Shown here piece by piece: positions 4,191 through 7,880 of a stretch of DNA of 64,000 nucleotides. The stretch spans positions 310,001 through 374,000 of the forward strand of contig JAJYTD010000001.1 in the NCBI GenBank assembly GCA_021793235.1, given 5' to 3'. The translations under genes were made by a program, and so were the position numbers. The DNA comes from Actinomycetes bacterium. GTDB lineage: Bacteria; Actinomycetota; Actinomycetes; Streptosporangiales; Streptosporangiaceae. Under the pieces are notes generated by a model. That model ran no database searches. It was not told the DNA's origin and saw nothing but the letters and a program-made list of their open reading frames with translations. Numbering within the stretch: the first letter of the stretch is position 1; each line of letters starts with the position of its first letter.

Positions 4191-5912
4191 ATGGTACAGA
4201 TGCCCGCAATGAACGCCGTTGTCGAGGTTCTCCGGTCCGAAGGCGTCGATACCGCCTTCGGCTGCCCCGGAGCCGCGATCCTGCCCCTGTACAAGGCGCT
4301 GGAGACCGTCGGTGGAATCGAGCACCTGACGGTCCGCCACGAAGAGGGCGCGGCCCATATGGCCGATGCCTGGGCACGCACCAGCGGGAAGGTCGGCGTG
4401 GCGATCGGCACCTCCGGCCCGGCCGGGACCAACATGATCACCGGTCTCTACACCGCGCTCGCCGACTCCGTTCCGATCGTCTGCATCACCGGCCAAGCGG
4501 TCTCCACCAAGCTGCACCAGGAGGCGTTCCAAGCGGTCGAGATCGTCGACATCGCCGCGCCCGTCACCAAGTGGGCGGTACAGATCAAGGAGGCCTCGCA
4601 GGCCCCGTGGATCTTCCGCGAGGCTTTCAGGATCGCCCGTGACGGGCGCCCGGGCCCCGTCCTGGTCGACATCCCGCTCGACATCGCGCAGGGAACCATC
4701 GAGTACGATCCGGCGATCGACGCCCCTCTGGCCGTCAACTCGGTGCGGCCGCATCTGCCGCGCGTGGAACGAGCCCTGGACATGCTGCTGGCCGCAGAAC
4801 ACCCGCTGATCCTGGCGGGCGGCGGCGTCATCATCGCCGAGGCGGCCGGCGAACTGGCGGAGCTCGCCGAATACCTGAACATCCCCGTCCAGGTCACCCT
4901 CATGGGCAAGGGCGCCTTCGACGAGGACTCCAGACTGTACTCCGGTATGACCGGCGTACAGACCTCCCAGCGCTACGGCAACGCCTCCTTCCTGGAATCC
5001 GACCTGGTGCTGGCCGTCGGCGCCCGCTTCGGCGACCGGCATACCGGGCAACTCGACGTCTATCGCGGGGACCGCGCGTTCATCCACGTCGACATCGAAC
5101 CGACGCAGATCGGCAGGGTCTTCGAACCCGACCTCGGTATCGTCTCCGACGCCAAGCTGTTCCTGCGGGCCATTCTCGACCTGGCCAAAAAGCGAGGTGC
5201 CGCCCGTGAAGCCGGAGCCTGGGTTTCCCGCGTCAACGAACTCAAGGCGGACCTGGGGCGCCGGGAGGATTTCGATACCGTGCCCATCAAGGCGCCGCGC
5301 GTCTACCGGGAGATCAACGAGGTCTTCGACGAAGACACCTACTTCGTCACCGCGATCGGCCTTTACCAGATCTGGGGCGGCCAGCACCAGAAGGCGTACA
5401 AGCCGCGCCACTACCAGGTCTGCGGTCAGGCAGGGCCGCTCGGCTGGGAGATCCCTGCGGCGATCGGCGTCAAGAAGGCGCTGAAGAAGACCGAACCGGA
5501 CGCCGAGGTGGTGGGTATCGTCGGCGACTACAGCTTCCAGTACATGGTGGAGGAACTGGCGGTCGGCGCCCAGTACGACGTGCCCTTCGTTCTCATCATG
5601 ATCAACAACGAGTATCTGGGACTCATCCGCCAGGCGGAGATCCCATACGGCATGAACTACCAGGTCGACATTCACTACGACGACTACGGCAGCGACAACG
5701 TCAAGATCATGGAGGCCTACGGCTGCTCCGGCCGCAGGGTCTGCGAACCCGGGGAGATCCGCGAGGCGCTGGAATGGGCGCGCAAGGAGGCGCGGGCCAC
5801 CTCCCGGCCGGTGCTCGTCGAGATCATGATCGAACGCGAAGCCAACACCCCCCACGGCCCGGCCATCGACGCCGTGGTGGAGTACGAGCCGGTCCCCGAG
5901 CACACCGCCTGA
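4191..5912 (+). CDS. gcl: Glyoxylate carboligase (tartronate-semialdehyde synthase)
   Basis: A 573-residue thiamine-diphosphate enzyme that would condense two glyoxylates to tartronate semialdehyde with CO2 release. The N-terminal PYR domain, central FAD/DHAP-like domain (DIEPTQIGR) and C-terminal PP domain with a GDYSFQY metal/ThDP motif and NNEYLGLIRQ are all visible. It aligns without gaps with the start of E. coli Gcl as I recall it, which supports the ATG at 4191 (Gcl starts MAKM, here MVQM). Residue 51 is Glu (RHEEGA), where E. coli Gcl has the unusual Val51 (RHVEGA). Other ThDP enzymes carry the canonical Glu here. Acetolactate synthase is the main alternative, but the operon favours Gcl. 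Confidence 0.88.
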   Translation: MVQMPAMNAVVEVLRSEGVDTAFGCPGAAILPLYKALETVGGIEHLTVRHEEGAAHMADAWARTSGKVGVAIGTSGPAGTNMITGLYTALADSVPIVCITGQAVSTKLHQEAFQAVEIVDIAAPVTKWAVQIKEASQAPWIFREAFRIARDGRPGPVLVDIPLDIAQGTIEYDPAIDAPLAVNSVRPHLPRVERALDMLLAAEHPLILAGGGVIIAEAAGELAELAEYLNIPVQVTLMGKGAFDEDSRLYSGMTGVQTSQRYGNASFLESDLVLAVGARFGDRHTGQLDVYRGDRAFIHVDIEPTQIGRVFEPDLGIVSDAKLFLRAILDLAKKRGAAREAGAWVSRVNELKADLGRREDFDTVPIKAPRVYREINEVFDEDTYFVTAIGLYQIWGGQHQKAYKPRHYQVCGQAGPLGWEIPAAIGVKKALKKTEPDAEVVGIVGDYSFQYMVEELAVGAQYDVPFVLIMINNEYLGLIRQAEIPYGMNYQVDIHYDDYGSDNVKIMEAYGCSGRRVCEPGEIREALEWARKEARATSRPVLVEIMIEREANTPHGPAIDAVVEYEPVPEHTA

Positions 5913-5928
5913 GGGGCCCTCGCGTCGC

Positions 5929-5975
5929 CCTCGGGAGGCGGCCCGTCTCCCTCTGAGAAGGGCCGCCTCCCGAGG
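5929..5975 (+). terminator. Strong hairpin after gcl
   Basis: A perfect 16-base-pair inverted repeat (5929-5944 with 5960-5975) around a 15-base loop starts 17 bases after the gcl stop codon. There is no T-tract, as is common for actinobacterial terminators. It would separate the glyoxylate operon from the leuA leader. Confidence 0.75.
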
Positions 5976-6034
5976 CGTCCGCGGAGGTTCACGGGGACAG
6001 GCACGCTCCCATGTCTGCTAACGTGGCTGGCGTT

Positions 6035-6064
6035 ATGCTGCGTGAGCTGCTCCTCCTTAGCGGC

Positions 6065-6082
<18 letters not shown>
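6035..6082 (+). CDS. leuL: leuA leader peptide (attenuation)
   Basis: A 15-codon frame encodes MLRELLLLSGRGGGR and stops at 6082. Five of its 15 residues are Leu, four of them consecutive (codons 6047-6058: CTG CTC CTC CTT). It lies directly upstream of leuA and immediately before two mutually exclusive hairpins. It would act as a ribosome-stalling sensor of charged leucyl-tRNA. An in-frame ATG at 6011 would add eight residues. A TAACGT hexamer at 6019-6024 could be a -10 element, which would make translation from 6035 nearly leaderless. The exact start is therefore uncertain, while the Leu run and its position are clear. Confidence 0.7.

Positions 6083-7880
<1,798 letters not shown>

Follow-up and report, generated by a model that had tools for sequence, protein, structure and literature searches.

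E. coli glyoxylate carboligase (Gcl), with its Val51, is the standard exception to the catalytic-glutamate rule of thiamine diphosphate (ThDP) enzymes. Among ThDP decarboxylases Glu51 is found in 94% and Val in 3%, and Val51 has been described as a feature that marks the glyoxylate carboligase family as a whole (PMC3534367). The stretch of DNA analysed here (the window, 64,000 nucleotides from a member of the Streptosporangiaceae) carries a gcl gene for which the original prediction placed a glutamate at this very site, and it raises the question of whether such a protein is a Gcl that has kept the Glu of its ancestors or a relative among the carboligases, with another specificity, that now occupies the slot in the operon. 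The features concerned are collected in Table 1.

Table 1. Features of the window that bear on the identity of the carboligase
Feature	Predicted identity	Position	Strand	Basis
hyi	Hydroxypyruvate isomerase-like, 265 aa	2256..3053	+	TIGR03234 E 3.3e-68; AP_endonuc_2 TIM barrel
glxR	Tartronate semialdehyde (2-hydroxy-3-oxopropionate) reductase, 296 aa	3138..4028	+	TIGR01505 370.9 bits, above the cut-off of 340.75
gcl	Glu51-type glyoxylate carboligase, 573 aa	4191..5912	+	NF008431 match; trees
Glu51 codon (GAA)	Val51 site of E. coli Gcl	4341..4343	+	Codon 51 from the ATG at 4191, direct reading
Glu420 codon	E. coli position 424	5448..5450	+	Column comparison; codon 420 counted from 4191

Residue 51 and its distribution

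The gcl frame is intact, with E51 lying within VRHEEGAAHMADAW. HMMER pairs residues 1-62 of its product without gaps with E. coli Gcl 2PAN and with 7CT6, in both of which the stretch around residue 51 reads RHVEGASHMA as against RHEEGAAHMA in the window Gcl, and MAFFT with an E. coli gcl gene again sets E51 of the window protein (P0001) on E. coli V51. The predicted glutamate is therefore borne out by two alignments that hold at residue 51, and the Val51 of E. coli Gcl on which the prediction was based proved correct. Full-length HMMER matches were found to 7CT6, 8I05 and 2PAN (E 1e-181 to 1e-172), with acetolactate synthases far behind (E 9e-86). In an AlphaFold model of middling confidence (mean pLDDT 69), used for the fold only, a strand at 44-47 is followed by a helix at 51-65, and the top PDB matches are Gcl structures, all of them. 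By alignment and model alike, Glu51 begins the helix that follows the PYR-domain strand, as the canonical Glu of ThDP enzymes does.

For the wider survey, 80 loci were sampled from genome contigs, further relatives came from searches of the class, the genus Streptomyces, the phylum and the class of one distant actinobacterial relative, and non-actinobacterial Gcls were sampled from plasmid records. Among 174 distinct Gcl-type proteins, residue 51 is Glu in 132 and Val in 42, and nothing else. All 132 distinct proteins sampled from the window Gcl's own lineage (Actinomycetota) have Glu and all 42 of the E. coli-type clade have Val; because of this invariance, Glu51 in the window protein is neither a sequencing error nor a chance substitution, and the published extension of Val51 to the whole Gcl family fails. 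Owners of Glu51 include Nocardiopsis, Planomonospora, Nonomuraea, Actinomadura, Amycolatopsis, Nocardia and some Streptomyces, together with deeper actinobacterial lineages at 54-71% identity, while Val51 occurs in E. coli, Pseudomonas, Deinococcus, Phyllobacterium and Variovorax, and in those Streptomyces proteins of the 52-55% band whose residue 51 was read. In two Streptomyces Glu51 Gcls (L032, which reads RHEAGA, and L168) Ala replaces the otherwise conserved Glu52.

The two types exclude each other within genomes. Of 393 Streptomyces genomes, 335 hold exactly one Gcl and none holds both types. In 14 of them the single Gcl is of the Glu type, at 71-80% identity, and in 321 it matches at the level of the Val type; residue 51 itself was read only in the fetched loci of both kinds. 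The chance of zero overlap is 1.6e-11 if genomes are taken as independent, which they are not, and this figure overstates the exclusion because the 14 Glu-type genomes descend from few ancestors. In the class sample the Glu type occurs in 29 genomes, the Val type in 47 and both in none; likewise, we searched the window's own genome for a second, Val51 Gcl and found none; besides its single Gcl, this genome holds a distinct acetolactate synthase and further ThDP enzymes. Two genomes (G055 and G260) each hold two Glu51 Gcl genes (L013 with L133, and L015 with L132), which are about 85% and about 67% identical to the window protein, and in which the second copy has its own hyi and glxR.

A remote homologue with Glu51 (43%) lies on plasmid pCR1A of Enterococcus gilvus (L146:5007-6677), where it is annotated merely as a thiamine pyrophosphate-dependent enzyme. 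Genes for a TIM-barrel protein, a D-2-hydroxyacid dehydrogenase and a glycerate kinase adjoin it, and an allantoinase gene lies a few genes upstream. It is possible that this protein represents a further Glu51 carboligase lineage in Bacillota.

Family models and phylogeny

The window protein passes the glyoxylate carboligase equivalog NF008431 (PRK11269; 894 bits, cut-off 791), but misses both the Gcl model TIGR01504 (677.5 bits, cut-off 711.2) and the acetolactate synthase model TIGR00118 (498.2 bits, cut-off 538.35). By score, tree and operon and pathway it is thus a Gcl in the broad sense (EC 4.1.1.47, NF008431 equivalog), but its Glu51 and its TIGR01504 score set it apart from the E. coli-type (Val51) Gcl, and its TIGR00118 score and its place outside that clade from the acetolactate synthase large subunit. 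On sequence, then, we assign it to the Gcl clade but outside the Val51 subfamily as published. This has a direct consequence for annotation, as TIGR01504 applied at its cut-off misses the Glu51 enzymes and Val51 is unfit for defining Gcl.

Gcl trees were built with residue 51 masked. The Glu51 and Val51 types form a single clade apart from the acetolactate synthases (100/100), which gives the window protein the placement that the original prediction had proposed as its check. The notion of a misannotated acetolactate synthase, which would account for the overall fold and for a Glu51 held in common, is rejected on the trees at 100/100; with TIGR00118 missed and a separate acetolactate synthase in the same genome (L002, 34% identical), we give it a negligible probability.

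Within Gcl the Val51 set is monophyletic (100/99 in one tree and 100/100 in another), and its sister is a pair of Glu51 proteins (L210 and L211; 100/96) that combine Glu51 with several states of the Val51 clade (M150, W241 and A399). The window's Glu51 lineage is the next branch, as one clade at 88/78, and its unity is for that reason only moderately supported. Residue 51 requires one change on this tree, and because the outgroup has Glu too, the trees indicate that Glu51 is ancestral in Gcl and that Val51 is derived, having arisen once. L146 of Enterococcus forms a long branch that joins the outgroup; when the rooting was redone without it the outcome was unchanged. The gcl genes of L210 (1500-3231) and L211 (1497-3228) adjoin glxR and a gene for a sugar-kinase-like product, which we take to be PfkB-like.

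On these trees the Glu-free catalysis of E. coli-type Gcl accordingly appears as a later change that happened once and was fixed along with roughly twelve further substitutions. Apart from residue 51, at least 12 columns hold states that never overlap between the Glu51 and Val51 proteins; they include 48, 82, 283, 396, 404, 412, 424 and 444. At position 424 (E420 in the window Gcl) Glu is invariant alongside Glu51 and is Thr in the Val51 clade, making it a candidate partner of Glu51. At several other columns the Glu51 lineage keeps states like those of acetolactate synthases, for instance N82 and D283. A reversion, in which a Val51 Gcl regained its Glu, would need few base changes, but the Val51 proteins form one nested clade whose sister lineage has Glu51, and the Glu lineage has retained these acetolactate-synthase-like states elsewhere in the protein; reversion is rejected on the trees, and we regard it as very improbable.

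The same fixed differences from Val51 Gcl (at 48, 82, 283, 396, 424 and 444), together with the missed TIGR01504 cut-off, are what speaks for the alternative in the original prediction, namely that the gcl slot holds a related carboligase with another specificity, such as one joining glyoxylate to another aldehyde or 2-oxo acid. Taken as a whole, the dozen or so fixed differences, Y396/S, E424/T and D283/N included, could mean an altered specificity in the Glu51 type. Against this, 41 positions are near-invariant and common to both Gcl types and absent from the sampled acetolactate synthases (I393, L421, L478, I479 and H285 among them, in E. coli numbering), and at position 482 of E. coli Gcl the window protein has Ala, where the sampled acetolactate synthases have Trp.

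Operon context and exchange of the two types

The gene order hyi-glxR-gcl was found in 77/80 Glu51 loci, and of the three exceptions two have no match for either neighbour (one of them being truncated by a contig end) and one has no hyi match. In the window itself Hyi scores 229.7 bits against TIGR03234, under the cut-off of 353.45. For the neighbourhood survey, frames were clustered with a codon-position GC filter against the shadow frames of high-GC DNA, and representatives were identified by NCBIfam. By best matches, at least one purine or ureide gene lies within 4.5 kb of gcl in 68 of the 80 loci (OHCU decarboxylase in 45, HIU hydrolase in 43, uricase in 42, allantoicase in 33 and allantoinase in 29), and a glycerate kinase gene lies within the same distance in 28, always co-directional. 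Glyoxylate is a product of ureide breakdown. Moreover, Val51 loci of other actinobacteria have the identical order hyi-glxR-gcl-glycerate kinase-allantoinase. In P. aeruginosa the gcl-hyi-glxR-glxK cluster is allantoin-inducible, and Gcl and GlxR have been shown by assay to make and reduce tartronate semialdehyde (PMC12694930).

In the window genome we found no uricase, and its allantoinase-like matches all fall under the cut-off, so that the source of glyoxylate in this strain must lie elsewhere than in ureides; isocitrate lyase is present, and the glycerate kinase gene is on another contig. It thus seems that the ureide branch has been lost in this strain and that the branch from glyoxylate to glycerate was retained. 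At the downstream end of gcl (region 5912-6165) the next gene is leuA, and in a relative (L037) an allantoicase gene stands between the two.

The GlxR tree calls for 4 changes of gcl type, of which well-supported branches force at least 3, and the window GlxR itself clusters with GlxRs of Val51 operons (96/97). The simplest cause is repeated swapping of the gcl type inside standing operons, and if gcl has been replaced repeatedly in this way, both types must supply the substrate of GlxR. This exchange beside GlxR is in our view the strongest evidence short of an assay that the two types would carry out the same reaction. A carboligase of different specificity is disfavoured by the company that the Glu51 gene keeps: it is linked to tartronate semialdehyde reductase and to glycerate kinase, lies in ureide clusters that produce glyoxylate, shares none of the sampled genomes with Val51 Gcl, and is exchanged with the Val51 type beside one glxR lineage. 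We consider this alternative unlikely, and the original prediction's preferred reading, a Gcl that retains its ancestral Glu, is supported by the tree, the Gcl-specific active-site residues, the operon and ureide context, the mutual exclusion with Val51 and the exchange beside GlxR.

Proposed reaction and significance

Taken together, the computed position and invariance of Glu51, the phylogeny, the operon, the ureide context and the interchange with the Val51 type suggest that the product of the window gene is very probably a glyoxylate carboligase (tartronate-semialdehyde synthase) whose lineage keeps the ancestral catalytic Glu51. For the reaction, for what Glu51 does in it and for the flux we infer the following. 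Glu51 would bond N1' of ThDP and help the 4'-imino tautomer and the C2 ylide to form, as in acetolactate synthase; a first glyoxylate would add to ThDP and lose CO2, and the resulting carbanion would attack a second molecule of glyoxylate, yielding tartronate semialdehyde. Reduction by GlxR would then give glycerate, which glycerate kinase would pass to glycolysis, with the hydroxypyruvate tautomer handled by Hyi. More generally, we think it likely that nature uses two interchangeable chemistries of glyoxylate carboligation, an ancestral one assisted by Glu51 and another, of single origin and with a set of co-fixed substitutions, that does without the Glu, and that their enzymes have been swapped several times in otherwise unchanged operons.

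A large natural Glu51 lineage thus fills the operon slot of the Val51 enzyme, and its place on the tree makes the loss of Glu a single event, of which a transitional lineage survives. Our literature search turned up no description of a naturally occurring Glu51 lineage among Gcls, although most subscription journals lay outside its scope and priority is unproven. The V51E mutant of E. coli Gcl is reportedly faster in the early steps and slower in overall turnover. A theoretical study of V51E is cited in PMC11204981. Until now the question of why Gcl lost its Glu has been addressed with single mutants of this kind; with matched natural pairs it becomes testable, and what the loss costs and what it gains can be measured.

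Comparison with known systems

The window Gcl is homologous over its full length to E. coli Gcl (PDB 2PAN, 8I01; 48% identity), with the same partners hyi and glxR and with the Gcl-specific residues I393, L421, L478, I479 and H285 in common. The two differ at Val51/Glu51, S396/Y, T424/E, N283/D and W412/Y, and the window protein is shorter by about 8 residues around position 500 and is missing some of the C-terminal tail. Its best PDB match by both sequence and model is the Gcl of Deinococcus metallilatus (PDB 7CT6; 52% identity), which has Val51. With the catalytic subunit of acetolactate (acetohydroxyacid) synthase it shares the fold, ThDP and Glu51 and, at columns that changed in the Val51 clade, N82 and D283, whereas that enzyme belongs to a separate clade, has other residues at the 41 Gcl-specific positions as well as Trp482, and is encoded in a different operon.
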